A stretch of 21,154 nucleotides of DNA from a virus, in IMG/VR virus record IMGVR_UViG_3300034072_001616, positions 1 to 21,154 of that record. One strand, given 5' to 3'. Below the pieces are notes generated by a model. It had not been told where the DNA came from, did not search any database, and was given only the letters and a program-made list of their open reading frames with translations. The position numbers and the translations under genes were made by a program. Below, one piece after another: positions 3,959-21,154 of this stretch (its first letter is position 1; each line of letters begins with the position of its first letter).

Positions 3959-4647
3959 TGCGCGGCGAAATCTCCTCCGGCAAGCATTCGAAGCGTCATC
4001 CTCTCGACTGGTATGTCGACGAGCACTGGTGTGCCGAGCAGCTGGCGATCGCGCTTGATGACTTCGCGCTTGAGCGGGCCGAAGGGCTGGCGATCTGGGA
4101 TCCGTGCTGCGGCTTGGGTAACACGCTGCAGGCAGCCCACCAGCGCGGGTTGCTCGTTGTCGCATCCGACCTCGTTGACAACTTCGTCTGGGACAATTTC
4201 CTGCCCGAGGATGGTTTGCCGGTTGATTTCTTCACCCGCAATTTCCTCGAGTGCGAGCAGCTCGAATACCCCTGCAGCATCATCTGCAACCCGCCTTACA
4301 GCTACATCAAGGGCATCGCAGAGGCTTTTGCGCGGCATGCGCTGAAGCTCTCGTCGCGCCGCGTCGCTATCCTGATGCCGAGCAAGTGGCTGGCCTCGCA
4401 GGCCCGCTACCAGCTGTTCACTGATCATCCGCCGCAGGCGGTGCTGCACCTGTGCCAGCGTCCGTCGATGCCGCCGGGCGATCGCATCGCGGCGTTGGGC
4501 AACCGCGCCTTCGGTGGCGGCATGGTCGATTACTGCTGGATCGTCTGGGACGTGAAGCGCCCGACCAAGCCGGGCCAGACCCGCACCATCTGGCTGCCGC
4601 CGCTGCACCGCAATTCCGAAATCCTGTCGCTTGAGGAGGTGCTGTGA
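3958..4647 (+). CDS. DNA adenine-type methyltransferase, orphan
   Basis: A 229-residue SAM-dependent methyltransferase. Motif I is IWDPCCGLGNT (about 47-56; SAM binding). The acidic residue of motif II is in VVASDL (Asp71). Motif IV is NPPY (111-114), typical of N6-adenine (and some N4-cytosine) DNA methylases. It is short, with no obvious target-recognition domain beyond the core, and no restriction endonuclease gene is nearby. It is therefore an orphan enzyme, probably protecting phage DNA from host restriction or marking DNA for regulation. It plays the part that Mom modification plays in Mu, although Mom is unrelated. Start and stop overlap the neighbours by one base each (TGATG), so it is translationally coupled in the early operon. 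Confidence 0.85.
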   Translation: MRGEISSGKHSKRHPLDWYVDEHWCAEQLAIALDDFALERAEGLAIWDPCCGLGNTLQAAHQRGLLVVASDLVDNFVWDNFLPEDGLPVDFFTRNFLECEQLEYPCSIICNPPYSYIKGIAEAFARHALKLSSRRVAILMPSKWLASQARYQLFTDHPPQAVLHLCQRPSMPPGDRIAALGNRAFGGGMVDYCWIVWDVKRPTKPGQTRTIWLPPLHRNSEILSLEEVL

Positions 4648-4781
4648 TGCCCGACGAACCCGAAAACCGTGTCGATCTGGTCGAGGTGATGCTTGGCATC
4701 GCGATCGCCATGATCATCGGCCCCGGCGTCATCTGGTGGGGGCTGACCATCGCCCAGCTTGTCTGGGGGCCGCTGCCGTGA
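4647..4781 (+). CDS. Small single-span membrane protein
   Basis: A 44-residue frame whose ATG overlaps the methyltransferase stop (TGATG), with GAGGAGG about eight bases upstream. After an acidic N-terminus (MPDEPENRVDLVE) comes a hydrophobic segment (VMLGIAIAMIIGPGVIWWGL, about 14-33) able to cross the membrane once. The function is unknown. Good ribosome site, exact coupling to both neighbours and clear membrane character support it as a real gene. A second small membrane protein occurs at 10027. Confidence 0.6.
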   Translation: MPDEPENRVDLVEVMLGIAIAMIIGPGVIWWGLTIAQLVWGPLP

Positions 4782-5068
4782 TCAGCCTGACCGAACGCCA
4801 GCAGGATGCCCTGCGCTTCATCATCGGCTTCAAGGAAGCCCATGGGCATTCGCCGTCTTACGTCGAGATCGCAAATGGCATCGGGCTCAACGGCGACAGC
4901 TCCAAGAGCCAGATCCACCGGCTGATCAGCGGACTGTGCGAGCGTGGTGCGATCAGACGCAAGTGGTGCGCGGCGCGTGAGATCGAGGTGCTTGTGCCGG
5001 TCGCGATTCCGCGCGCACCCGATGGCGAGCCGCTGCACTTCGTGCGCACCGGAGGGATGGTGGCATGA
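4778..5068 (+). CDS. LexA-like winged-helix DNA-binding protein, copy 1
   Basis: A 96-residue protein starting at GTG 4778, which overlaps the previous stop (GTGA). It matches the LexA DNA-binding domain: LTERQQDALRFIIGFKEAHG then SPSYVEIANGIGLNGDSSKSQIHRLISGLCERGAIRR. It has no S24 peptidase domain, so it cannot self-cleave like LexA and the prophage repressor. It ends with the motif PRAPDGEPLHFVR, which is also at the end of the next gene. This suggests either a competitor at LexA-type or phage operators, or a specialised phage regulator. It is adjacent to and overlapping with its paralogue at 5065. Confidence 0.75.
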   Translation: MISLTERQQDALRFIIGFKEAHGHSPSYVEIANGIGLNGDSSKSQIHRLISGLCERGAIRRKWCAAREIEVLVPVAIPRAPDGEPLHFVRTGGMVA

Positions 5069-5346
5069 TGACCCTGACCACCCGCCAGCAGGACGCGCTG
5101 CGCTTCATCACCGGCTATTCCGAGCGCAACGGCATCTCGCCGACCCTGCGCGAGATCGCCGACGGTATCGGCCTCGACAGCAAGACCGTCTTCACCGCCG
5201 ACTGGCTGGTGCGCCAGCTGGAGGAGCGCGGCGCGGTGGTGCGTGTCGGGCGGCAGCGTTCGATTGAGGTGGTGGAAGCCCTGCCGATTCCGCGCGCGCC
5301 GGATGGCGAGCCGCTGCACTTCATTCGCATCGGGGAGGGCGCATGA
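5065..5346 (+). CDS. LexA-like winged-helix DNA-binding protein, copy 2
   Basis: A 93-residue paralogue of the gene just upstream, overlapping it by four bases and preceded by GGAGGG. It has the LexA N-terminal fold: LTTRQQDALRFITGYSERNG, SPTLREIADGIGLDSKTVF, then WLVRQLEERGAVVRVGRQRSIEV. The shared tail PRAPDGEPLHFIR shows tandem duplication rather than independent capture. Divergence is high in the recognition-helix region (KSQIHRLIS against VFTADWLVR), so the two probably recognise different sites or could form heterodimers. No peptidase domain is present. Confidence 0.75.
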   Translation: MMTLTTRQQDALRFITGYSERNGISPTLREIADGIGLDSKTVFTADWLVRQLEERGAVVRVGRQRSIEVVEALPIPRAPDGEPLHFIRIGEGA

Positions 5347-8837: not shown

Positions 8838-9812
8838 ATGATCAACGTGAAGGACTTGCCGGTCGACGTCGAAGAGATGCGGCTGTGGCTCAACGGCTAC
8901 CGCGAGCTCAGCGATCCGCCGATGCCGTGGAGCAAGCTTGCCCAGGAAACCGGGATTGCGCTGGGCACGATCACCACCTTCGCCGCCGGCACCTATGGCG
9001 CCAAGGATGGTGGCGGCAATGTCGCGCGCAAGGTGTTCCAGTTCCGCCAGTCGGTGGAAGCGCAGTCGATGCGCCAGTCCAAGCTGCCGGTGAACCCGGG
9101 TTACTTTGACACGCGCACCAGCCTTCGCATGATGGAGCTGCTGGAGATCGCGCACACGGGCCGCATCACCGTGATCGGCACCGGCCCCGGCACCGGCAAG
9201 ACCATGACGGTTGACGAATATGCCGAGCGCGCCGGGCCGGTGTGGAAGGCGACCATGAAGCCTTCCAGCAACAGCCTGCATTCGATGATCCGCGAAGTGC
9301 AGAAGGCGCTGGGCGTCGAGCCGCGCCGCCTCTCCACCGCCGATGCCTCGGCCCTCGTCGTCACCCGCATGAGCGGGCGGCGCGGCCTGCTGGTGGTGGA
9401 CGAGGCCAACTGGCTTTCGCTCGAGGCGATCGAGGAGCTGCGTTACTGGCACGACATCACTGGCGTCGGGATCTGCATGCTCGGCAACGAGGAACTGGTG
9501 CAGTCGATCAAGACCGGTCGCAAGCGCGACCAGCTGGCCCGCCTGCTCAGCCGCATCGCCAACATGCACGAACAGCGCACCCCGATCCGCGACGATGTGA
9601 TCGCCTTCTGCGATGCGTGGGGGATCGAGCAGCCGGACATCCGCCGCTACCTCGAAAACATCGCCACCACGCCCGACAGCGGGGGCCTGCGCGAATGCAA
9701 GCAGCTGGTGGAGGCCGGCTCGATGCTCGCCGCCGCTGAAGAACGCGGCCTGTCGATCGTCGACCTGCGCGACGCCCAGAGCGAACGCGCCACGCGGTGG
9801 ATCAAGGCATGA
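8838..9812 (+). CDS. B: MuB-type transposition target-capture ATPase
   Basis: A 324-residue AAA+ ATPase (MuB is 312). An N-terminal helix-turn-helix region (about 29-52: MPWSKLAQETGIALGTITTF) is followed by Walker A GTGPGTGKT (114-122) and Walker B LLVVDEAN (184-191). A conserved LGNEEL lies in the sensor region, then a helical C-terminal domain. MuB-type proteins polymerise on target DNA, choose the target and stimulate the transposase while avoiding DNA near the element. It starts 22 bp after the transposase gene with a strong GAGGAGG ribosome site. The order A then B is as in Mu. Confidence 0.92.
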   Translation: MINVKDLPVDVEEMRLWLNGYRELSDPPMPWSKLAQETGIALGTITTFAAGTYGAKDGGGNVARKVFQFRQSVEAQSMRQSKLPVNPGYFDTRTSLRMMELLEIAHTGRITVIGTGPGTGKTMTVDEYAERAGPVWKATMKPSSNSLHSMIREVQKALGVEPRRLSTADASALVVTRMSGRRGLLVVDEANWLSLEAIEELRYWHDITGVGICMLGNEELVQSIKTGRKRDQLARLLSRIANMHEQRTPIRDDVIAFCDAWGIEQPDIRRYLENIATTPDSGGLRECKQLVEAGSMLAAAEERGLSIVDLRDAQSERATRWIKA

Positions 9813-11364: not shown

Positions 11365-11561
11365 ACGCCCCCGCCACCCTGATCCCCGCCGCGCCGGTGC
11401 TCTACTGGCCGGGCGAGGCTAACCGCTGCCCCGCCTGCGGCAGCAGGAGCTGGAACGTCGGCCGCGTCACCGCCGAATGCGCCGCCTGCGAACACCCGCT
11501 GCCGCTGGCCCACCAGCCCGATACGGGCGAGCCGGTGTGGGACGGCAAACCGCGCAACTGA
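11361..11561 (+). CDS. Small zinc-ribbon protein
   Basis: A 66-residue protein with two Cys pairs: CPAC (Cys23, Cys26) and CAAC (Cys40, Cys43), separated by 13 residues. This is the form of a structural zinc ribbon. GGAGCTCGAGG lies just upstream of the ATG, and the stop overlaps the following mor-like ATG. Such small ribbons usually bind nucleic acid or a protein partner. Placement directly before the late activator suggests a role in late gene control, but that is only positional. Confidence 0.6.
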   Translation: MNAPATLIPAAPVLYWPGEANRCPACGSRSWNVGRVTAECAACEHPLPLAHQPDTGEPVWDGKPRN

Positions 11562-11983
11562 TGACCGCCCCCCTCCGCCACCTGCCCCATGTGCTCGACG
11601 AGATCGCCCGGATTGCGGGCGAGGACGCCGCGCGCGCGGTGGCGCAGGAGGTGGGCGGGGTGCAGGTCTATATCCCGCCGCAGCCCGGCCCCGATCACTG
11701 GCTGAGCAAGCTGGTCGGGATCGAAGATGCCCGCAAGATCGCCGATCACTTCACCGCCGGTTTCGGCGGCATCCGGGTGGAAATCCCGCTCCACGACACC
11801 GGCTTCATCGCCCGCGCGCAGGCCCGGTGTGATGCCATGATCCTTTCCGGCAAACACAGCGAACGTGACATTGCCCGCGCGTGCGGATACACGATCCGCA
11901 GCGTCCGCCGCCGCCGCGCCGCCTTGCGTGCTGCCGGACACCGGCCCATCGATCGCCGCCAGGGCGATCTGTTCGGGAAGTAG
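11561..11983 (+). CDS. mor: Mor-family transcriptional activator
   Basis: A 140-residue protein of the Mor/C family. It has an N-terminal dimerisation region (VLDEIARIAGEDAARAVAQE), the family's GG.x.(I/V)YIP strand (VGGVQVYIPP, about 31-40) and RKIADHFTAGFGGIRVEIPL. A C-terminal helix-turn-helix follows at about 99-118 (HSERDIARACGYTIRSVRRR) with a basic tail. In Mu, Mor made at the end of the early operon activates the middle promoter, giving C, which activates late promoters. Here no second Mor/C-family gene is visible and lysis genes follow at once, so this one protein may activate late genes directly. Its stop is one base before the palindrome at 11985-12002, a likely target. Confidence 0.88.
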   Translation: MTAPLRHLPHVLDEIARIAGEDAARAVAQEVGGVQVYIPPQPGPDHWLSKLVGIEDARKIADHFTAGFGGIRVEIPLHDTGFIARAQARCDAMILSGKHSERDIARACGYTIRSVRRRRAALRAAGHRPIDRRQGDLFGK

Positions 11984-12005
11984 GCCCGGACACCTGTCCG
12001 GGGCG
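11984..12005. promoter_or_regulatory. 22-bp repeated element with perfect palindrome, copy 1
   Basis: CCCGGACACCTGTCCGGG (11985-12002) is a perfect dyad with 8-bp arms around CC. With one flanking base on the left and three on the right it is identical to 20526-20547. It lies between the mor-like stop and the lysozyme ATG at 12040, about 37 bp upstream of that ATG. It is a candidate binding site for the Mor-like activator at the late promoter. It could instead act as a terminator of the early operon, but no T-run follows. Confidence 0.7.
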
Positions 12006-12039
12006 CGATTGCCCCCGAATTCCCCCATCCAGCGGTGCC

Positions 12040-12618
12040 ATGACCACCGCGCTTCTCTCCGAACGGATGCTGCTCGAGATCGCCGAGCATGAAGGCCTCG
12101 TGCTCGAGGCCTATCTCGACAGCGTCAACGTGTGGACGTGGGGCTTCGGCGTCACCGACAAGAGCGGCCACCGCATCGGGCGCTATCGCCGTAATCGCTC
12201 CACGATCGAGCGCGCGGTCGAGGTTTTCGAATGGCTGCTGCGCACCAAATACCTCCCCGAGGTGATCGCCGCCTTCAAGGGCCGCGAGCTGACCGAGGCG
12301 CAGCTGACTGCCGCGCTGTCGTTCCACTGGAACACCGGCGCGATCGGGCAGGCTGACTGGGTGCAATCCTTCCTGCTGGGCCGCCGGGACAAGGCGTGGA
12401 CCGAGTTCCTGCACTGGTCTCGCCCACGCGAAATCATCGCCCGCCGCAAGGCAGAGCGCGATCTGTTTTTCGACGGGCGCTGGAGCGGTGACGGCGTGGT
12501 GCTGATGTATGATCAGGTGCGCGCCAGCGGCACCATCGTCTGGTCCAGCGCACAGCAGATCGACATCCGCGATGAAGTCCGCGCCGCGCTGGCCCGCAAT
12601 GCGGGGGCCGCAATCTGA
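12040..12618 (+). CDS. Phage lysozyme (endolysin), glycoside hydrolase 24
   Basis: A 192-residue muramidase of the T4 lysozyme family. The catalytic pattern E-x8-D-x5-T is exact: Glu18 (AEHEG), Asp27 (AYLDS) and Thr33 (WTWGFG), the same spacing as T4 lysozyme Glu11/Asp20/Thr26. It cleaves the glycan strand of peptidoglycan at lysis. No cleavable signal peptide or N-terminal membrane anchor is seen, so release probably needs a holin (candidate at 13441). The ATG at 12040 is 57 bases after the mor stop and follows the putative operator. Its ribosome site is weak (AGCGGTG). It is the first gene of the late operon. Confidence 0.9.
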   Translation: MTTALLSERMLLEIAEHEGLVLEAYLDSVNVWTWGFGVTDKSGHRIGRYRRNRSTIERAVEVFEWLLRTKYLPEVIAAFKGRELTEAQLTAALSFHWNTGAIGQADWVQSFLLGRRDKAWTEFLHWSRPREIIARRKAERDLFFDGRWSGDGVVLMYDQVRASGTIVWSSAQQIDIRDEVRAALARNAGAAI

Positions 12619-13232
12619 TGTGGATCGCCCTGAAACTGCTCGCCTCGGGCGCGTTTGAAGCGGCCATGAAAGGCCTCTCAGCGGCATGGCAATGGATCAT
12701 CAGCGACTGGCGCAATGGCCCGCTGCTGTGGTTCGGCGTGCTGTTCCTGGTGAACGCCTTCATCGTCAATCCCGCGCACCAGCGCCGGATCAGCGGTCTG
12801 GAGGCCGATCTCGCCGCCGAACAGGCCGCGCATCTCGGCACCGTGAACGCTTTCCTCGCTGCCTCCGAACAGGCGCAAAAAGACGCCCAGGACAATGCCC
12901 AGCGGGTCGCCCGCGAACAGGAGATCATCACCGATGAGATCGTCAGTGACTACCGCAGCGATCTTGCTGCTCTGCGCAGCCGGTTTGACCGGTTGCGGGC
13001 AGGCACGCCCCGAACCGATCCCGGCGGTGCCCACGCAGCTGGTGTGCCCGGCCTTCCCGACGCCGCCGGCCGAGTTGATGCGGCGACCGGCGAAGATCGA
13101 CTTCCTGCCGCCGGAAGCCTGACCCTTCCCGACGCGCTGATTGCCAGCGAGCAGGCGCTCCAGCTGGACGCGCTGATCGACTGGATCGAGGCGCAATCCG
13201 CCGTCCGATTCACGCCCGAAGGGAGCCGGTGA
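12618..13232 (+). CDS. Rz: Inner-membrane spanin (Rz-like)
   Basis: A 204-residue protein with one membrane segment (PLLWFGVLFLVNAFIV, about 35-50) followed by a long charged coiled coil (ISGLEADLAAEQAAHLGTVN onward to about 125). The C-terminal part is Pro/Gly-rich and then helical. This is the arrangement of i-spanins that, with an outer-membrane lipoprotein partner, disrupt the outer membrane at the last step of lysis. The partner gene is nested inside at 12934-13122 in another frame. The unusual feature is the 34-residue cytoplasmic N-terminus before the membrane span. The ATG overlaps the lysozyme stop (TGATG). Confidence 0.78.
   Translation: MWIALKLLASGAFEAAMKGLSAAWQWIISDWRNGPLLWFGVLFLVNAFIVNPAHQRRISGLEADLAAEQAAHLGTVNAFLAASEQAQKDAQDNAQRVAREQEIITDEIVSDYRSDLAALRSRFDRLRAGTPRTDPGGAHAAGVPGLPDAAGRVDAATGEDRLPAAGSLTLPDALIASEQALQLDALIDWIEAQSAVRFTPEGSR
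12934..13122 (+). CDS. Rz1: Outer-membrane spanin lipoprotein (Rz1-like), nested in Rz
   Basis: A 62-residue frame embedded entirely within the Rz-like gene in a different frame. It starts at ATG 12934 with GGAG upstream. It has a short basic N-terminus, a hydrophobic signal (TTAAILLLCAAG) and the lipobox LTGC with Cys21 as the expected lipidated residue. A Pro-rich mature part follows (ARPEPIPAVPTQLVCPAFPT), exactly the character of Rz1. After signal peptidase II cleavage the mature lipoprotein would sit in the outer membrane and pair with the inner spanin. Fully nested Rz1 genes are known from lambda. An earlier in-frame ATG at 12895 is less likely. Confidence 0.82.
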   Translation: MRSSVTTAAILLLCAAGLTGCGQARPEPIPAVPTQLVCPAFPTPPAELMRRPAKIDFLPPEA

Positions 13233-13444
13233 TGGATATCGGCGAGCGCGGGCTGGAACGGGCCGAGGAGTTTGAGCGGCTCTCGAAAGATGCGGCGGTG
13301 GCGCGCATCCGCAACAACCTTGCCGGGATCGGCGAGGAGTTCTGCATCGCCTGCGGCGAACGGATCGAGGAGGCGCGGCGTCTGGCCATGCCATCGGCCA
13401 AGCGCTGCATCGACTGCCAGACCAGGCTGGAGCGCGCGAAGTGA
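13232..13444 (+). CDS. DksA/TraR-type C4 zinc-finger protein
   Basis: A 70-residue protein with CIACGERIEEARRLAMPSAKRCIDC. Cys38, Cys41, Cys59 and Cys62 form the DksA/TraR zinc finger, including the CG.RI...R and AMPSA.RC conservation. A helical N-terminus rich in Glu and Arg (GERGLERAEEFERLSKDAAV) precedes it. Full-size DksA and the short TraR insert into the RNA polymerase secondary channel and change promoter choice. This short form resembles TraR in size, so it may shift host polymerase to phage needs. It is overlapped by one base with the spanin gene and by four with the next. Such a gene is common in this part of Mu-like phages. Confidence 0.82.
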   Translation: MDIGERGLERAEEFERLSKDAAVARIRNNLAGIGEEFCIACGERIEEARRLAMPSAKRCIDCQTRLERAK

Positions 13445-13887
13445 TCCTGCACCTGTCCGAGCCTCTGTCCTTCACCAAGTTCCTCAGCCTCTGGCTGCCG
13501 ACGCTCGCCGTCGCCGTGGTGGTGCCCGATGTGCAGACCCCGCTGGGCGACCGCTTCCTGATCGATGCCTGGGGCCTGCCGATCCCGGTGGTGACCTGCA
13601 TCCTCGGCGCGATCGGCATCATCGCCGCGCGGCCTTTCACCGTGCGGGCCGAGGCGGACCTTGGCTGGAAGCTGCGCCTGCTCGTCAGCTTCATCATGCT
13701 GGTGGTGGTCGAGCTGTGGATCATCGAGAGCCGCCCCGGGTGGCTGTTCGCCTTCGTCGTCGCCATCGGCCTCGGCTTTTCCGGCTTCAGCCTGCTCGAA
13801 CTGTTCGGCGAGCAGGTGAAGGACTTCGTGCGCCGCGCATTCGCCGGGGCGATCAATACCATCGGCAGAGGACCAGATCCCAAATGA
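13441..13887 (+). CDS. Multi-span membrane protein, probable holin
   Basis: A 148-residue protein beginning with GTG 13441 that overlaps the previous stop (GTGA). Up to four hydrophobic segments are seen: LSLWLPTLAVAVVVP (about 15-29), PVVTCILGAIGIIAA (about 49-63), LRLLVSFIMLVVVELWII (about 80-97) and WLFAFVVAIGLGFSGFSLL (about 102-121). The tail is charged. Location in the lysis cluster behind lysozyme and spanins makes a holin-type role the best guess. I do not recognise a defined holin family and a purely structural membrane role remains possible. Confidence 0.65.
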   Translation: MILHLSEPLSFTKFLSLWLPTLAVAVVVPDVQTPLGDRFLIDAWGLPIPVVTCILGAIGIIAARPFTVRAEADLGWKLRLLVSFIMLVVVELWIIESRPGWLFAFVVAIGLGFSGFSLLELFGEQVKDFVRRAFAGAINTIGRGPDPK

Positions 13888-14300
13888 GCCCCGGCAACCT
13901 CCTCGAGCTGGCGATCATCGCCTTCATCGTCATCGGCATCACGATCGCGGCGTGGCGCGGCGGGGCCAAGAACCCGGTCGGCACCGGCGGGCTCGACAAG
14001 AAGATCAACGACCTTTCGGGCGAGGTGAAGGCGGTCAAGACCAAGGTCGGCGAGATCGTCGAGCGGGTCGAGAAGATCGAGGGCGACACCGCCAGCGCGG
14101 CCGATATCAAGCGGCTGGAAAACGCGATCGACCGGCTGGCGAACAAGCAGGCCGATCACGAATCGCGCCAGCGCGCGCTGGCCGACAAGCAGTCGGAACA
14201 CGCGGCGATATCGGCCGGGACTGCCGCCAAGGTCGATCATATCGACCGCAATCTCAGCCTGATCATGTCCGTCGTCGTACCGAAGGGGATGGAGAAGTGA
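13884..14300 (+). CDS. DUF2730 family protein (Mu gp25-like)
   Basis: A 138-residue protein with an N-terminal membrane span (LELAIIAFIVIGITIAAW, about 7-24) and a long charged helix (DKKINDLSGEVKAVKTKVGE and on to about residue 115) likely to form a coiled coil. This is the layout of the DUF2730 proteins found between the lysis and packaging genes of Mu-like phages. The function is not established. The ATG overlaps the upstream stop (ATGA). Confidence 0.7.
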   Translation: MSPGNLLELAIIAFIVIGITIAAWRGGAKNPVGTGGLDKKINDLSGEVKAVKTKVGEIVERVEKIEGDTASAADIKRLENAIDRLANKQADHESRQRALADKQSEHAAISAGTAAKVDHIDRNLSLIMSVVVPKGMEK

Positions 14301-14605
14301 CTTTCGCCGCCAACCTTGCCGAGGGTGTCGCCCGCGAGGCCCGCCTTGCCATGCTGCGCGCGCTGGCCGCGCAGACCGACGGCCGCCTGTCCGACATCCT
14401 GCTCAAGCGCACGCTCGACATCTATGGCTACCGCCGCGATCGCGACTGGATCCGCACCCAGCTGCGCAAGCTCGCCGATCTGGGCGCTGTCAGCCTGTCG
14501 GAAAGCGGCGAGGTGCTGTTCGCGCTGATCGAAGGCCCGGGCCGCGATCATATCGAGGAGCGCAGCGTGATCGAAGGCGTGATGCGCCCGTCGGAGGCGC
14601 GCTGA
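14297..14605 (+). CDS. Mu gp26-like winged-helix protein
   Basis: A 102-residue protein starting at GTG 14297, overlapping the preceding stop. The middle (RLSDILLKRTLDIYGYRRDRDWIRTQLRKLADLGAVSLSESGEVLF) has the form of a winged helix: helix, helix-turn-helix, then a beta hairpin. It matches the small regulator-like protein that sits between the gp25- and gp27-like genes of Mu relatives (VpaChn25_0724 type). A role as a DNA-binding accessory factor in packaging or late regulation is possible. Its place in the conserved order supports the identification more than any single motif. Confidence 0.7.
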   Translation: MTFAANLAEGVAREARLAMLRALAAQTDGRLSDILLKRTLDIYGYRRDRDWIRTQLRKLADLGAVSLSESGEVLFALIEGPGRDHIEERSVIEGVMRPSEAR

Positions 14606-14772
14606 TGACGCGCGAGGATGATCCCGATTGGGCGCTGATCGACACGCTCGACGCCGAGCTGCTCGATGACGAGGAAGACGATTGTCTGCACGATTGCGGT
14701 CTCATGCCTGACGGCCAGTGCATGCTGGCGGGCACCGAGTTCTGTGATTGGGATTGCGGGAGGCTCGGCTGA
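14605..14772 (+). CDS. Small acidic Cys-rich protein
   Basis: A 55-residue frame coupled on both sides by TGATG overlaps. It is very acidic (Asp/Glu run AELLDDEEDD) and ends with five Cys: Cys27, Cys31, Cys39, Cys47 and Cys51, in the pattern C-x3-C-x7-C-x7-C-x3-C. This spacing is regular enough to suggest a metal site or disulfide cluster. I do not recognise it. It sits in the packaging block between the gp26-like and gp27-like genes. The GTCGGAGGCGC upstream offers a ribosome site. Confidence 0.6.
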   Translation: MTREDDPDWALIDTLDAELLDDEEDDCLHDCGLMPDGQCMLAGTEFCDWDCGRLG

Positions 14773-15347
14773 TGGCGCGGGGCAAGCGCAAGGAAGGCCG
14801 CGGGCACCTGTCGACGATCGACATGCTGCCCGATGAAGCCGAGGGCGCGATCGTCTGGGCCAATGAGCAGCTGCGCGAACGCAAGCTGCCCAGCGCCGTC
14901 ATCCTGGCCGAGTTCAACGAGCGGCTCGCCGATCTCGGCATGGCCCCGATCAGCAAGAGCGCCTGGGGCCGCTACGCTGTGCGCAAGGCGATCCAGTTCC
15001 GCCGCCTTGACGAGATCCAGCGCATGGGCGGCGAGCTGGCCCGCACCATGGACGCCAAGGCCCCGGACGAGGTCACCGTCGCGGTGGCCGAGCTGCTGAA
15101 GGTGGCGATCTTCGAGATCCTCGAAGACGGCGAAGTCTCGGCCGCCGGCATCATGCAGATGAGCCGCGCGCTGCAATCGGTGGTCAGCGCCCAGAAGACC
15201 AGCGCCGAATATCGCGAGCGGCTGGAGAAGGAAGTGCAGGAGCGGCTGGCCAAGGCCGCGAAGGACGCAGGCGAGATCGGCAAGAAGAAGGGCGTTTCGC
15301 CCGAGGCGATCGCCGAGATCAACCGCGCACTGCTGGGGCAGGGCTGA
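14772..15347 (+). CDS. DUF3486 protein, Mu gp27-like small terminase candidate
   Basis: A 191-residue protein with the gp27/DUF3486 beginning MARGKRKEGRGHLSTIDMLP. An HTH-like N-terminal domain follows (ANEQLRERKLPSAVILAEFNERLADLGMAPISKSAWGRYAVRKAIQ), then a long helical C-terminal region (YRERLEKEVQERLAKAAKDA) typical of oligomerising small terminases. In Mu relatives this protein precedes the large terminase and is believed to recognise packaging DNA. Here too it directly precedes and overlaps the large terminase by one base. ATG 14772 is chosen because it overlaps the upstream stop. Confidence 0.82.
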   Translation: MARGKRKEGRGHLSTIDMLPDEAEGAIVWANEQLRERKLPSAVILAEFNERLADLGMAPISKSAWGRYAVRKAIQFRRLDEIQRMGGELARTMDAKAPDEVTVAVAELLKVAIFEILEDGEVSAAGIMQMSRALQSVVSAQKTSAEYRERLEKEVQERLAKAAKDAGEIGKKKGVSPEAIAEINRALLGQG

Positions 15348-16771
15348 TGGCAAAAGCCAAGGGCAACGCCAAATGCATCCCGGCTGACAAGGGCGCGATC
15401 ATGCTGCCCTATCAGGCGCGCTGGGTGCGTGATGGTGCGCGGCTGAAGCTGATCGAGAAATCGCGCCAGATCGGCCTGAGCTGGGCCACCGCCTATGCCG
15501 CCGTCCAGCGCACCGCGCTCACCACCGCGCGCTTCGACCAGTGGGTCAGCTCGCGCGATGATATCCAGGCGCAGCTGTTCCTTGAGGATTGCAAGTTCTG
15601 GGCGGGCAACCTGTCGATCGCCGCGCAGGATCTGGGCGAGCAGGTGCTCGATCCGACGGCACGCCAGACCGCCTATGTCCTGCGCTTCGCCAACACGCGG
15701 CGGATCAATTCGATGAGCTCGAACCCGAACGCGCAGGCGGGCAAGCGCGGCGGACGCATTCTCGACGAGTTCGCGCTCCACCCCGATCCGCGCAAGCTGT
15801 GGACCATCGCCTATCCCGGGATCACCTGGGGAGGTTCGATGGAGCTGATCAGCACACACCGGGGCAGCGCCAACTTCTTCAACCAGCTGGTCCGCGAAAT
15901 CCGCGAGCAGGGCAATCCGAAGAAGATATCCTTGCACACCGTTACCTTGCAGGACGCGCTCGATCAGGGCTTCCTGTGGAAGCTCCAGCAGACCCTGCCG
16001 CCCGACGATGAAAAGCAGGCGATGGACGAGGCTGCCTATTTCGACTTCGTGCGCAGCGGCGCGGCCGACGAGGAGAGCTTCCAGCAGGAATACATGTGCC
16101 GCCCGGCCGATGATGACGCCGCCTTCCTCGAATATGATCTGATCGCCCGCGCCGAATATGCGCAAGGGACGGATTGGCAGACGATCGAGGGCGGCACGCT
16201 CTACGCCGGGATCGATATCGGGCGGAAGAAAGACCTCACCGTCCTGTGGCTGCTCGAGAAGCTGGGCGACGTGTTTTACACCCGCGAGGTCATCACCCTG
16301 CACAACATGTCGAAGCCCGATCAGGAAGCGGTGATCTGGCCGTGGGTGGAACGGGTGCTGGCATCGGGCGGGCGCGTGGCGCAGGATTACACCGGGCTCG
16401 GCATCGGCTGGGGCGATGATGCCCAGCGCCGGTTTGGCAAATATCGCTACGAATGCGTCAGCTTCACCGCGCAGACCAAGGAGGCGCTGGCCTATCCGGT
16501 GCGCGGCGCGATGGAAGACCGGCGGCTTCGCATCCCGCACGACGGCAAGATCCGCGCCGATCTGCGTAGCGTCACCAAGCAGGTGACCGGCGCGGGCAAC
16601 ATCCGCTTTACCGCCGAGCGCACGCCCGATGGCCACGCTGACCGCTTCTGGGCGCTGGCGCTGGCGCTCCATGCCGCAAGCACGCCCGGCGGTGCGCCCT
16701 GGCGGCCGGTGGCGGACAGCCGCCGCCAGCCCGACGTCCTCGACCTCGATGCAGACTGGATCCCGGCATGA
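15347..16771 (+). CDS. Large terminase subunit (Mu gp28-like)
   Basis: A 474-residue packaging motor. The ATPase half has LIEKSRQIGLSWATA (about 35-48), the variant Walker A of this terminase family, and GGRILDEFALH (about 135-145) with the Walker B acids. The C-terminal nuclease domain begins at about residue 286 with YAGIDIGRKKDLT (Asp290 as first metal ligand) and includes a later Asp-rich segment near AQDYTGLGIGWGDD. It translocates DNA into the prohead and makes the headful cut; in Mu-like phages packaging starts near the left end and takes some host DNA. It is shorter than Mu gp28 but has both catalytic halves. It overlaps the small terminase gene. Confidence 0.88.
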   Translation: MAKAKGNAKCIPADKGAIMLPYQARWVRDGARLKLIEKSRQIGLSWATAYAAVQRTALTTARFDQWVSSRDDIQAQLFLEDCKFWAGNLSIAAQDLGEQVLDPTARQTAYVLRFANTRRINSMSSNPNAQAGKRGGRILDEFALHPDPRKLWTIAYPGITWGGSMELISTHRGSANFFNQLVREIREQGNPKKISLHTVTLQDALDQGFLWKLQQTLPPDDEKQAMDEAAYFDFVRSGAADEESFQQEYMCRPADDDAAFLEYDLIARAEYAQGTDWQTIEGGTLYAGIDIGRKKDLTVLWLLEKLGDVFYTREVITLHNMSKPDQEAVIWPWVERVLASGGRVAQDYTGLGIGWGDDAQRRFGKYRYECVSFTAQTKEALAYPVRGAMEDRRLRIPHDGKIRADLRSVTKQVTGAGNIRFTAERTPDGHADRFWALALALHAASTPGGAPWRPVADSRRQPDVLDLDADWIPA

Positions 16772-16932
16772 AGACTGGCACGCATAATCTGGGCGCGAAC
16801 GCCTTCTCGCAGCTGACCTTGGTCACTGTCAGCGATGGCTCGGTGCTGATCCGTCAGACCGGTGTAGGCCGCCAGCATAACATCACCCTGTCGGCCCATC
16901 AGGCCAAGCTGCTGAAGGACGTCCTCGCATGA
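16768..16932 (+). CDS. Small hypothetical protein between terminase and portal
   Basis: A 54-residue frame linked to the terminase and portal genes by ATGA overlaps on both sides. The sequence starts MKTGTHNLGANAFSQLTLVT, is beta-rich and polar in the middle (SVLIRQTGVGRQHNITLSAH) and ends with a short helix (QAKLLKDVLA). No membrane or Cys motif is present. I do not recognise it. Coupling on both sides, with GCAT junctions shared with the neighbours, makes it a likely real gene. Confidence 0.55.
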   Translation: MKTGTHNLGANAFSQLTLVTVSDGSVLIRQTGVGRQHNITLSAHQAKLLKDVLA

Positions 16933-19106
16933 GCACCAACACCGGCGGCAACTTCCTCACCAAGGCGCTCGCCCGCGTCACCACCTCGCTCACCCAGATG
17001 CGCCATGCCGCGCAGTCGCTGTTCTGGGGCGGGCTGCTGAAGCGCACCCGCTTCGATTACGCCCGCGAGGTCGGCGACATGCTGGACGCGAGCGTGGTGA
17101 TGGCCCCGATCATGTGGCTGCAGCGCGCGCTGCCCGAGGCAAACCTTGCCATGCGCGACCGCCAGAAGGGCGGGAAGCTGGAGCCGGTCGAGGAGCACCC
17201 GCTGCTCGAGCTGATCCGCAATCCGAACCCGTTCTACGGCGATATCGCCCTGTGGGGCGCGACCATCCTCAGCTATTGCACCTCGGGCGACGCCTATTGG
17301 GTGAAGGTGCGCAACACATCCGGCGTGCCTGTCGAGCTGTGGTATGTCCCGCACTGGATGATGGAGCCCAAGGCGGGCCTCGACGGGACCGAGTTCCTGT
17401 CGCACTACGAATATTCGCCCGGCACCGGCTTCGGCCGGATGTACCTCGATCCCGATGATGTGATCCACTTCCGCCACGGCCTCAACCCGCGCGATCTGCG
17501 CCGGGGCCTGTCGCCGCTGCAGAGCGTGATCCGCGAGATCTTCGCCGATATCGAAAGCAGCAACTTCGTCGCCAGCCTGCTCCGCAACATGGGCGTGCCC
17601 GGTGTGGTGATCAGCCCCAAGGGCGGGGCCATGCCGACGCCCGAGGATGTCGAGGCGACAAAGGCGTGGTTCAACCAGACCTTCAGCGGCGATGGGCGCG
17701 GCGGCACGCTGGTGATGGGCGCACCGACCGAGGTGAGCCAGTACGGCTTCAACCCCCAGCAGATGGAGCTGAGCGGCGCGCGAGACGTCGCTGAGGAACG
17801 CGTCTGCGCCGCGCTCGGCATCCCGGCCGCTGTCGTCGGCTTCGGCGCGGGTCTCCAGTCGACCAAGGTCGGCGCGACGATGGAGGAGATGCGCAAGCTC
17901 GCCTGGCACAACGGCGTGCTGCCGCTTGGCCGCGCGCTGATCGACGAGCTGCAGCGCAGCCTGCTGCCCGATTTCCAGCGCGGGGAACGCCGCCGCCTGG
18001 AGCTGTTCTGGGACACCGACGAGGTGCTCGCCCTGCAAGAGGACGAGAACCGTACCACCGAACGCAAGCTCAATGAGCTGAAGGCCGGGGCGATCACGCT
18101 CTACGACTATCTCACCGAGACCGGGCGCGAGGCTGACGAGGCGCATAAGTATTACCTGCGGCCGATCTCGGTGATGGAGGTGCCGCTCGCGGAGGCTGGC
18201 CGTGGGCGCGCGCCGATGGAGCCTGTCGGCGTCCAGTCACCAGACCTACTGCCGCCGCCCGCCAAGGCGCTTCCGGCTCCGGCTGGAAAGGCCGCCAATC
18301 CGCTCGAGGACTATCTCCCCGCCAATGCCCGCGAGGCCAGCGCCGATGCCATAGCGCGGGGCGAGCGTTTCGCTCTGATGCTGCGCGCCGAGGAGCGCGC
18401 CGATCGCGAGGCCTTCACCGCTGCGCTGCTGCCGCTGTTTGAAGGCTGGGGCGACACCGCCGGCAAGATCGCGCTCGATGTGCTGCGGGCGCGCGGCGAA
18501 AAAGCCTTCGAGAAAGCCGAACCCGATCCCGAGCTGATCAACCAGATCATCGACCTGCTCAATCTCGAAGCATGGGAGCAGGGCCTCTCGTCCCGCTACC
18601 AGGCTCAATATGTCGGCATCGCCCGAAAGGTCGCCGCCGCGATCGAGGAGGCAGGCTTCGGCACCGGCCTGCCCGATCCGGTGATGCGCCAGATCATCGC
18701 TGCCGGCGGCACCCGCGCCGGGCTGGTCGATGTGCCGGCGCAGACCCGGCAGGCGATCTTCGATGCGCTGGCTGAAGGCCGCGCTCTGGGCGAAGGCGCG
18801 CAGGCGCTGGCCAACCGCATCGCCAACAGCGTCGAGGGTAGCCACTGGGGCAATGCCGAAACCCGCGCCCGCGTGATCGCCCGCACCGAAACCAAGTATG
18901 CGCAGAACATCTCGACGCTTGAGGCCGGCCGCGCTGCGGGGGTCGAGGAATACGTGATCTTCGACGGCCGCTTCGGCGAGCCGCGATCCGAGCTCGCCCA
19001 CATCGCCCGCGACGGCAAGATCGTATCGGCCGAGGATGCCTGGATCATGGCCACCAACATGCGGCCCAACTGCACCCTCAGCTTTGCACCCCACTTCTCG
19101 CTCTAG
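16929..19106 (+). CDS. HK97-type portal fused to a MuF-type head morphogenesis domain
   Basis: A 725-residue protein in which two usual phage genes appear joined. Residues about 30-420 look like an HK97-family portal (LELIRNPNPFYG, DAYWVKVRNTSGVPVELWYV, DVIHFRHGLNPRDLRRGLSPLQ, GIPAAVVGFGAGLQSTKVG). A Pro/Ala-rich linker at about 435-460 (PPPAKALPAPAGKAAN) follows. Residues about 465-725 are helical and end in the MuF motif region (NAETRARVIARTETKYAQNI at about 640-659, then NCTLSFAPHF). MuF proteins bind the portal inside the procapsid and often work as minor head proteins. The frame is continuous across the linker. In Mu the portal (gp29) and gp30 are separate and the portal is of another family. 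Confidence 0.85.
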   Translation: MSTNTGGNFLTKALARVTTSLTQMRHAAQSLFWGGLLKRTRFDYAREVGDMLDASVVMAPIMWLQRALPEANLAMRDRQKGGKLEPVEEHPLLELIRNPNPFYGDIALWGATILSYCTSGDAYWVKVRNTSGVPVELWYVPHWMMEPKAGLDGTEFLSHYEYSPGTGFGRMYLDPDDVIHFRHGLNPRDLRRGLSPLQSVIREIFADIESSNFVASLLRNMGVPGVVISPKGGAMPTPEDVEATKAWFNQTFSGDGRGGTLVMGAPTEVSQYGFNPQQMELSGARDVAEERVCAALGIPAAVVGFGAGLQSTKVGATMEEMRKLAWHNGVLPLGRALIDELQRSLLPDFQRGERRRLELFWDTDEVLALQEDENRTTERKLNELKAGAITLYDYLTETGREADEAHKYYLRPISVMEVPLAEAGRGRAPMEPVGVQSPDLLPPPAKALPAPAGKAANPLEDYLPANAREASADAIARGERFALMLRAEERADREAFTAALLPLFEGWGDTAGKIALDVLRARGEKAFEKAEPDPELINQIIDLLNLEAWEQGLSSRYQAQYVGIARKVAAAIEEAGFGTGLPDPVMRQIIAAGGTRAGLVDVPAQTRQAIFDALAEGRALGEGAQALANRIANSVEGSHWGNAETRARVIARTETKYAQNISTLEAGRAAGVEEYVIFDGRFGEPRSELAHIARDGKIVSAEDAWIMATNMRPNCTLSFAPHFSL

Positions 19107-19116
19107 GAGCCCGACC

Positions 19117-19815
19117 ATGCAGACCAAGAACCTGACCGTCACCGAGATGGGCGAGACCGGCAAGGGCCTCGCCATCCTCGCCCGCCTCTCCGAAGTCGAT
19201 CACGACGGCGACACCTATGCGCCGGGAGCCTTTAGCTGGAAGGGCGACCAGTGGTGCCCTCTGATCCACCACCACGATCGCTACCAGATGCCCTTCGGCA
19301 AGGCGCGGGTCTACGAGGAGGGCGACATCGCCTATGCCGAGCTGCACCTCAACCTCGAAACCCGCGCCGGGGCCGACTGGCACAAGGCGCTGCTGTTCGA
19401 TCTGGCCACCGGCAAGTCGGTGCAGGAGTATTCCTACGGCTTCGAGGTGCTGGACGCCGATTACAACATCACCGCCGACAGCCGCACCCGGGTGCTGAAG
19501 CAGCTTGACGTGCATGAGGTTTCGACGGTGGTGCGCGGGGCCGGGCGCGGCACCCGCACGCTCAGCATGAAGGAGCTGAAGGACGCCGCCTTCGCCCCGC
19601 TGATCGGATCGCTGGGCGAACTGGCCGAGGCGCTGAAGGGCGATCCCCAGTCGCTCACCGCCACCGGTCGCAAACAGCTCGAGCAGATCCACGCGCAGCT
19701 GGGGGCGGTCCTCGATCCGGCCGATCCCGATGCCGAGGCCAAGGCGCTGGCCGCGATCGAGGCTGAAATCGTCCACCACCTGACCCGCGATGCGCGAAGA
19801 AGGATTATCGGGTAA
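19117..19815 (+). CDS. HK97-type prohead protease
   Basis: A 232-residue capsid maturation protease. The family pattern is visible: LARLSEVDHDGDTYAPGAF, then PLIHHHDRYQMPFGKARV holding the catalytic His (51-53 cluster) and ETRAGADWHKALL. KSVQEYSYGFEVLD has the nucleophile Ser106. The C-terminal half is helical and may serve as a scaffold. It cleaves the delta domain of the capsid protein during head maturation. The ATG at 19117 has AGGAG seven bases upstream, just after the portal-MuF stop. Mu itself uses an unrelated protease/scaffold gene (I/Z), so this belongs to the exchanged head module. Confidence 0.88.
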   Translation: MQTKNLTVTEMGETGKGLAILARLSEVDHDGDTYAPGAFSWKGDQWCPLIHHHDRYQMPFGKARVYEEGDIAYAELHLNLETRAGADWHKALLFDLATGKSVQEYSYGFEVLDADYNITADSRTRVLKQLDVHEVSTVVRGAGRGTRTLSMKELKDAAFAPLIGSLGELAEALKGDPQSLTATGRKQLEQIHAQLGAVLDPADPDAEAKALAAIEAEIVHHLTRDARRRIIG

Positions 19816-19821
19816 CTTCGA

Positions 19822-19841
19822 GCAACCGACTCGGAGGTTGC
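19822..19841 (+). promoter_or_regulatory. Hairpin covering the ribosome site of the extra gene
   Basis: GCAACC (19822-19827) and GGTTGC (19836-19841) are perfectly complementary around an 8-base loop. The Shine-Dalgarno GGAGG (19833-19837) spans the loop and right arm, and the ATG follows at once at 19842. In RNA this would partly hide the ribosome site. The overlapping CCGACTCGG is also a short dyad. It could be a translational switch or chance. Confidence 0.4.
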
Positions 19842-20309
19842 ATGATCAGTGAAATTGCAGGGGCATTTTCGAGCCTCAAAGCGGCGACGGATATCGCTCT
19901 AGGCCTCAGTGCAACTTCGACCCAAGCGGCAGTCGATGAGGCGAAGATTGGGTTGCAGAGGCATCTACTGGAGGCGCAACAGGCCATCTTTGCTGCACAA
20001 GCGGTGCAAGTGGAGCAAGCCAAGAAGATTGCCGACCTGGAGGCAGAGATATCCCGCCTGAGATCGTGGGAGACTGAGAAAGCGAGATATGAGCTCAAGC
20101 AGTACGATAACGGCGCTCTCGCTTACGAACTGAAGGCAGAGGAGGCCGGGGGCGAACCACCTCATCAATTGTGTCCGAACTGTTTTCTGGAAGGCGCTAA
20201 GTCATATCTGCAACCCACGGGCGGGCTGAAGGCTGGCGCCAAAGCTACGGGATGCCCCAGATGCAAAAGTAGCTTTGCTTCAGGCGCGAAACACAACGTT
20301 TATATCTGA
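19842..20309 (+). CDS. Phage cargo protein: coiled coil plus CxxC zinc site, unknown function
   Basis: A 155-residue protein inserted between protease and capsid genes and with a lower GC content than both. Residues about 30-85 form a helical coiled coil (QRHLLEAQQAIFAAQAVQVE, KIADLEAEISRLRSWETEKA). The conserved-looking RYELKQYDNGALAYELK follows. A C-terminal zinc-ribbon-like part has CPNC (Cys111, Cys114) and CPRC (Cys138, Cys141). I recall similar proteins with the same ETEK.RYEL and C.NC patterns in many unrelated prophages, without known function. It has its own ribosome site within a hairpin and is followed by a candidate terminator, which fits a 'moron' gene. A lysogen or anti-host role is a guess. 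Confidence 0.7.
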   Translation: MISEIAGAFSSLKAATDIALGLSATSTQAAVDEAKIGLQRHLLEAQQAIFAAQAVQVEQAKKIADLEAEISRLRSWETEKARYELKQYDNGALAYELKAEEAGGEPPHQLCPNCFLEGAKSYLQPTGGLKAGAKATGCPRCKSSFASGAKHNVYI

Positions 20310-20347
20310 GGCGCTGGGGGCCGCCAGAATGCCCCAGAATTGATTGG

Positions 20348-20387
20348 AGGCCCGTCCCCCGCCAAAATTCGGGTGACGGCCTTCTTA
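20348..20387 (+). terminator. Candidate intrinsic terminator after the cargo gene
   Basis: AGGCCCGTC (20348-20356) pairs with GACGGCCTT (20375-20383), with one bulged C. An inner stem CCCG/CGGG closes a CCAAAATT loop (20362-20369). The long GC-rich hairpin is followed by a short T-containing tail (TCTTAT). It stands 38 bases after the stop at 20309. The T tail is weak, so efficiency is uncertain. Confidence 0.5.
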
Positions 20388-20525
20388 TGGCCTCTGAAAT
20401 CGCCGCTAGGGGGCGTTTCATAAGCGGGCCGCACCCGGCAGTGTCGATCATCGCCGGTTCCGGTTGTCGCATCGGCACGATCGCGCTACACCGCACCCAT
20501 CCCGACATCGCTGGCAATCCACTGC

Positions 20526-20547
20526 GCCCGGACACCTGTCCGGGGCG
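20526..20547. promoter_or_regulatory. 22-bp repeated element with perfect palindrome, copy 2
   Basis: This is identical over 22 bp to 11984-12005, with the dyad CCCGGACACCTGTCCGGG at 20527-20544. It lies 86 bp upstream of the capsid ATG and downstream of the candidate terminator, so it marks the start of another late unit. It is the second candidate binding site for the Mor-like activator. Confidence 0.7.
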
Positions 20548-20591
20548 AGAAGGCGCGTCTGCCCCGTCATTACGGCTCCACCGGTTTCATC

Positions 20592-20630: not shown

Positions 20631-21154
20631 ATGTCCGATATCAAGAACCTCACCCGGAAGGAGGCTGAGGAAAAGCTCCAGACCCGCCAGGCGGATCTGG
20701 CCAAGGTGTTCGAGGCCGCCAAGACCGAGGACGGCCGTTACGATTACAGCAAGGCGGTCAGCCTGTTCCCCGAAGTGAACGACGCGATCGGCGTGGCCGA
20801 GAAGGTCAAGTCGCTGAACGCCGAGGCCGACGCGCTGATGACGCATGTCGAAACCTTCCTCGAAGCCGACAAGGCAGCGGCGGCGATGGCTGCCCGCGGC
20901 AAGGCGCGCGGCGGCTTCGTCCATCCGCATGCCGGCGGCCAGCCTGCCAACCAGGGCCAGTTCAAGTCGGTCGGGCAGCACCTCGTCGAGGCTGCGGAGT
21001 TCAAGGCTTGGATGACCGGCGGCAAGGGGCCGGCCGGTGCCTCGATCAACATCGAGGACATGCTGCCGTCCGACTTCCTCGCCAAGGCTGCCGCCTTCGA
21101 GACCATGGGCCGCAAGGCGCTGATGAGCACCTCGGCCGGTTTCGCGCCGGAAAG
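20631..21154 (+). CDS. HK97-type major capsid protein, 5' part
   Basis: The frame opens at ATG 20631 with GTGGAGA upstream and runs off the window after 174 codons. The first about 85 residues are a charged helical delta/scaffold domain (LTRKEAEEKLQTRQADLAKV, KSLNAEADALMTHVETFLEA). A Gly/Ala-rich cleavage region follows (about 86-110). The start of the mature HK97-fold protein is then seen (QFKSVGQHLVEAAEFKAWMT and MSTSAGFAPE, the usual N-arm character). The upstream protease would remove the delta domain. It forms the head shell. The product is truncated here only because the window ends. Confidence 0.85.
   Translation, partial: MSDIKNLTRKEAEEKLQTRQADLAKVFEAAKTEDGRYDYSKAVSLFPEVNDAIGVAEKVKSLNAEADALMTHVETFLEADKAAAAMAARGKARGGFVHPHAGGQPANQGQFKSVGQHLVEAAEFKAWMTGGKGPAGASINIEDMLPSDFLAKAAAFETMGRKALMSTSAGFAPE

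Follow-up and report, generated by a model that had tools for sequence, protein, structure and literature searches.

Two copies of a palindromic element in a Mu-like phage record

The stretch of DNA analysed in this study (hereafter the window) is an IMG/VR record of 21,154 bases, a fragment that ends inside a capsid gene. Its gene content is that of a Mu-like transposable phage and comprises MuA transposase, Mor, lysozyme, Mu gp27, terminase, portal/F and S78 protease genes, followed by the capsid gene. The string GCCCGGACACCTGTCCGGGGCG is present at 11984-12005 and again at 20526-20547, and all 22 bases agree between the two copies, as a first-pass annotation of this DNA had reported; the repeat can be stretched to 25 bases with one mismatch. 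Its core is a dyad, CCCGGACA-CC-TGTCCGGG, in which perfect 8-bp arms flank the 2-bp centre CC, again in line with the annotation (11985-12002 and 20527-20544). The annotation held such a repeat to be far beyond chance, and shuffled sequence is expected to hold 0.01 matches to the 18-bp dyad at up to three mismatches. A third copy, also reported as missing, was not found in the window within the same mismatch limit; this owes in part to the record being a 21-kb fragment, and relatives with longer records carry another copy before the tail genes.

Both copies are indeed intergenic. Copy 1 (11984-12005) starts right after the stop codon of the mor gene (TAG, 11981-11983), with 37 nt between the end of its 18-bp dyad and the ATG (12040) of a lysozyme (endolysin) gene, the first gene of the lysis unit (12040-12618, + strand; PF00959, E 2e-11). 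The element is found at the same place in L028, L111, L029 and other contigs. Copy 2 (20526-20547) lies between an open reading frame at 19842-20309 and the ATG (20631) of the major capsid protein gene, with 86 nt from dyad end to ATG, and it occupies the same place in G004, G005, G008, G023 and L073. Only the 5' part of this capsid gene is contained in the window (20631-21154, + strand) before it runs off the record, and it is homologous to the post-protease capsid ORFs of relatives. The candidate terminator that had been placed upstream of copy 2 was not recovered, since a scan of 20310-20526 on the + strand gave no terminator-like site. The open reading frame at 19842-20309, between the protease gene and the second dyad, is a conserved gene of unknown function (PHROG 1244) that encodes two CxxC pairs. 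Besides, the window contains a tandem duplication at 4767-5333, where two adjacent short ORFs (4631-5068 and 5065-5346) resemble LexA-type N-terminal domains and share 78-79% DNA identity over two stretches.

Distribution of the dyad among related phages

The exact 18-mer was found in 25 IMG/VR stretches from 22 contigs, 19 of which provide Mu-like surroundings according to profiles grown from the window's own proteins and from proteins of named phages. A search of relatives had been suggested in the first-pass annotation, and the dyad is present at homologous positions in many of them. It stands right after mor and before the lysis genes in the window, G002, G005, G010, G011, G012, G018 and G023, and before protease I or capsid genes in G001, G004, G005, G006, G008, G009, G011, G012, G016, G018 and G023. 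Moreover, it precedes tail or baseplate genes (G005, G006, G007, G010, G014 and G017), a position that had been asked about for the tail operons. The layout as a whole, with the dyad following the activator gene and preceding the lysis, protease/capsid and tail units, is that of Mor/C-dependent promoters. In Mu-like contigs the dyad typically begins 0-51 nt after the mor stop codon, and a free-centre version of the pattern, CCCGGACA-NN-TGTCCGGG, added further examples.

Since the 22 contigs were selected for holding the dyad, loci found by Mor homology alone give a less biased figure. At 10 of 11 such loci, some of which are near-identical to each other and hence not all independent, the dyad lies no more than about 40 nt from the mor stop codon, and at the eleventh (L113) a site is located about 850 nt past mor. 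A Mor homology search of genome contigs returned a single weak match (Marinobacter), and a search of that genome for PF08765 found nothing. In the phages Mwe-Yong1, Aussie and B23, ungapped 16-24-mers gave no clear site common to the post-Mor and pre-structural regions.

Similar sequences also occur outside Mu-like surroundings. Paired GGACA-NN-TGTCC dyads about 40 bp apart, accompanied by further half-sites, are found in L074, L079, L082, L084, L089, L094, L102 and L104, which are contigs without Mu-like genes; these pairs lie between a large and a short ORF and are probably the operator of an unrelated regulator. Tandem CCCGGACAAATGTCC units, several of them about 23 bp apart, occupy L096:7130-7260, again in a contig without Mu-like matches. 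In addition, CCCCGGACAATTGTCCGGGGTTTTTTTT at L101:10789-10810, a contig unrelated to these phages, resembles an ordinary terminator built on the same arms; the arms alone are therefore not diagnostic. Taken with the twin sites, this copy means that the function of such a dyad cannot be read from its sequence by itself.

A -10-like hexamer at a fixed distance from the dyad

When the sites were aligned on the dyad in gene direction, an A at offset 25 and a T at offset 29 past the 18-mer stood out, which are A(-11) and T(-7) of a -10 hexamer. The signal emerged from an initial set of 29 sites and held in a further 21, with A at -11 in 21/29 and 15/21, respectively. The -10 signature xAxxxT begins 24 bp past the dyad in 27/58 non-redundant sites, whereas the 89 remaining offsets tested reach 5/58 at most. 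After restriction to perfect-arm sites and removal of sequences at least 50% alike, xAxxxT was retained at offset 24 in 20/38 sites, against a maximum of 9 for rotated sequences at their best offset. The signal is present at the post-Mor/lysis and the structural promoters alike, and its fixed spacing implies that the dyad belongs to a promoter, in which it would take the place of the -35 element (27/58 sites overall, and 13/14 in the clade of phage POA1180 described below).

In the window, the predicted -10 hexamers are CATCCA (12026-12031, + strand) and CATTAC (20568-20573, + strand), each 24 bp past its dyad. Both carry the A at -11 and lack the T at -7, and are thus partial matches. CATCCA is conserved in G002, L111 and G023, and CAATAC stands at the place of CATTAC in G004 and G008. 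A sigma70 consensus scan yielded no promoters, which we attribute to the degenerate -10 hexamers and the lack of a -35 element.

The Mor-like protein and covariation of the dyad with its recognition helix

The gene that ends directly before copy 1 (11561-11983, + strand) codes for a Mor-like late activator of 140 aa, the presumed binder of the dyad. The protein matches the Pfam family PF08765 (Mor) with an E-value of 8.5e-7 and 29.4 bits, above the curated cut-off of 24.9, as well as PHROG 836, 'late transcriptional activator' (E 7e-22), and on these sequence profiles it can be assigned to the Mor/C family. An AF2 model (pLDDT 83) features a helix-turn-helix at residues 101-108/112-124. Foldseek searches with the model returned TrpR-like helix-turn-helix matches, while Mu Mor (1rr7) appeared only at E 1.4, which is not a significant match; a PDB sequence search found only generic helix-turn-helix or designed repeat proteins.

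We were curious to know whether the dyad changes together with the C-terminal helix of Mor, as had been proposed as a check, and this is what we observed. Phage POA1180 (KX669658, Ochrobactrum) has a different dyad, CCTGACA-N-TGTCAGG, which occurs three times, namely after mor, before the protease gene and before the tail sheath gene, and which shares its distance to the -10 with the window's sites. Its relatives L114-L119 carry the same type of dyad, and in 13 of the 14 sites of this clade xAxxxT is found at one offset; dyad centre and hexamer are 32 bp apart, compared with 32.5 in the CCGGACA group. The recognition helix reads RSAYR in proteins with CCTGACA sites and R-x-x-RR in those with CCGGACA sites. 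At the position of Arg116 of the window, all Mor proteins with a CCGGACA site directly after mor possess an arginine, whereas the POA1180 clade has a tyrosine. The Mor protein of L120 is 47% identical to that of POA1180, yet its dyads are of the CCGGACA type. A tree places the POA1180 clade inside the group of Mor sequences that go with CCGGACA sites, with one transition, so the Arg/Tyr change in specificity was probably a single evolutionary event.

The Rhodobacter phage RcapMu (JN190960) carries two identical copies of CCCCCGGACCTGTGTCCGGGGG, one immediately behind its Mor/C-like gene and one ahead of the protease gene I, with the arms CCCGGAC/GTCCGGG that the window also has. It differs from the window in the 4-bp centre and in a T-rich tail behind the dyad, and the site is unannotated in the record. 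The Roseophages PeaS-P1, RhkS_P1 and ThpS-P1 feature other lineage-specific repeats common to their post-Mor and pre-protease regions, and a CA-starting hexamer, read by eye, lies at centre +32.5 to +33. Dyads that are specific to a lineage and change with Mor argue that the site tracks Mor. In the named phages L064 (POA1180), L072 (RcapMu), L066, L067 and L069, repeats without annotation that lie behind the Mor-like gene and ahead of protease or tail genes are likely late promoters as well.

Comparison with the Mor- and C-dependent promoters of Mu

In the middle promoter Pm of Mu, a Mor dimer binds two inverted half-sites at -51 to -36, and this site, centred at -43.5, replaces the -35 element upstream of a weak -10 (PMC4287176, PMC4390567). 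Using the primer JM1 and the bases at -57 to -52 given in PMC4390567, we located the site on the Mu record (L071) as AGTAA-AGCCGG-TTAAT at 9173-9188, which puts it 3 nt behind the mor stop codon. The arrangement is shared with the window, where a Mor-family gene is likewise followed within 3 nt by a dyad in the presumed place of the -35 element and by a weak predicted -10. In contrast, the site sequences are unrelated, and Pm drives a middle operon that includes gene C, while the genes downstream here are those for lysis and the capsid. The description of Mu sites as AT-rich and unlike the dyad holds in part for the Mor site, as its arms are AT-rich but its spacer is GC-rich. Dyad centre and -10 lie 30.5 bp apart in Mu Pm and 32.5 bp apart in the window (32-32.5 bp over both dyad types), a difference that counts against reading the dyad as an activator site.

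The late promoters Plys, PI, PP and Pmom of Mu (PMC4461284, PMC4287176) resemble the sites described here in preceding lysis, protease/capsid and tail genes, and the positions of Pm/Plys, PI and PP correspond to the places of the dyad. Nevertheless, Mu uses C as a second activator for them, whereas no separate C gene was seen here and the Mor-like gene is itself followed by the site found at the late units. One Mor-like activator seems to do the work that Mu divides between Mor (middle) and C (late).

Proposed function of the dyad

We consider it most likely, at a probability of roughly 0.9, that the dyad is the activator site of a Mor/C-family protein and replaces the -35 element in two late promoters, one for lysis and one for the capsid. 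The proposal of the first-pass annotation that the element is a candidate site of the Mor-like protein thereby gains support from its position, from covariation with the recognition helix and from the -10-like hexamer at fixed spacing, all read from sequence. The Mor-family gene closes the early region, and the dyad directly follows its stop codon. Judging by symmetry, position and covariation, a Mor dimer would bind the dyad, with each helix-turn-helix reading one CCGGACA half-site. The spacing of the -10 signal suggests that the bound dimer occupies the place of the -35 element, its centre lying about 44 bp ahead of the start, and brings host RNA polymerase carrying a sigma70-type factor to the weak -10 (CATCCA at 12026, CATTAC at 20568), with predicted transcript starts near 12038 and 20580. 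Accumulation of Mor would then activate the lysis and capsid units at the same time. Points that speak against this reading, besides the spacing difference from Mu Pm, are the missing T at -7 in both hexamers of the window, the similar dyads in non-Mu contigs, the probably single origin of the Arg/Tyr change and the lack of a significant fold match to Mu Mor. The window thus follows the plan of Mu with a different site sequence and, within the reach of the record, one activator instead of two.

The dyad might in addition act as a terminator or roadblock for upstream transcription as long as Mor is not bound, a supplement to the activator role rather than a substitute for it. The Mor site of Mu (9173-9188) overlaps a predicted terminator (9179-9200), and T-rich tails follow the dyads of RcapMu, G001, L095 and L120; neither copy in the window has a T tract, and we regard such a dual role as unlikely here. 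Less probable still is that the dyad serves solely as an intrinsic terminator or 3'-end hairpin closing the early/mor and the upstream structural transcripts. It does lie just past stop codons, a hairpin can form in its RNA, GGTTTTGCTTT follows it in RcapMu and G001, and the predicted terminator of Mu, as mentioned, overlaps the Mor site. We rejected termination as the sole role, however, because a scan for a GC-rich hairpin with a T tract found none at the window's copies, T-rich tails are limited to 10 of 58 sites, and the hairpins are not clearly more stable than those of shuffled sequences (z -1.4 and -0.9). Moreover, base identity is conserved and not just pairing, and termination accounts for neither the constant spacing of the -10 hexamer nor a sequence that follows the Mor helix. 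That the dyad is the operator of another regulator (a phage CI-like repressor, Ner, GemA or a host factor) is equally improbable: palindromes of this size are generic for dimeric helix-turn-helix proteins and twin GGACA-NN-TGTCC dyads exist in unrelated contigs, but no copies lie in the early/repressor region of the window or near MuA/MuB in annotated relatives, the dyad usually adjoins mor and changes with its recognition helix, and the known layout of Mu is the same.

Work on Mor/C promoters has been almost confined to Mu, and our search of open papers found no description of such sites outside Mu. As candidate activator sites, the dyads are legible from sequence alone in dozens of phage contigs and form a natural set of paired activators and operators, which makes a DNA-recognition code of the Mor/C family testable and the late promoters of unannotated transposable phages predictable.

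Predicted leaderless transcripts

The first ATG of the downstream open frame is at offset 35-39 in 19 of 58 sites, which is the region where transcription is expected to start, about 7 nt after the -10. The ATG of the window's lysozyme gene, at offset 38, falls at about +3 relative to the predicted start; with only 0-2 nt ahead of this ATG, the lysis mRNA would be leaderless or nearly so. In the relative L111 this ATG is kept and the next one is absent. We predict from these positions that many dyad promoters, including the lysis promoter of the window, give rise to leaderless or nearly leaderless mRNA, and leaderless translation of phage lysis genes is thereby raised as a testable question. 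A broader scenario, to which we would give somewhat less than an even chance, is that a Mu-like lineage relies on one Mor-type activator with its operator set against its own gene, that the difference between Arg (residue 116 in the window) and Tyr (POA1180 clade) goes with a switch of every late promoter from CCGGACA to CCTGACA half-sites, and that many late mRNAs, that of the window's lysis unit among them, are leaderless. The capsid promoter, by contrast, has a predicted leader of about 50 nt.
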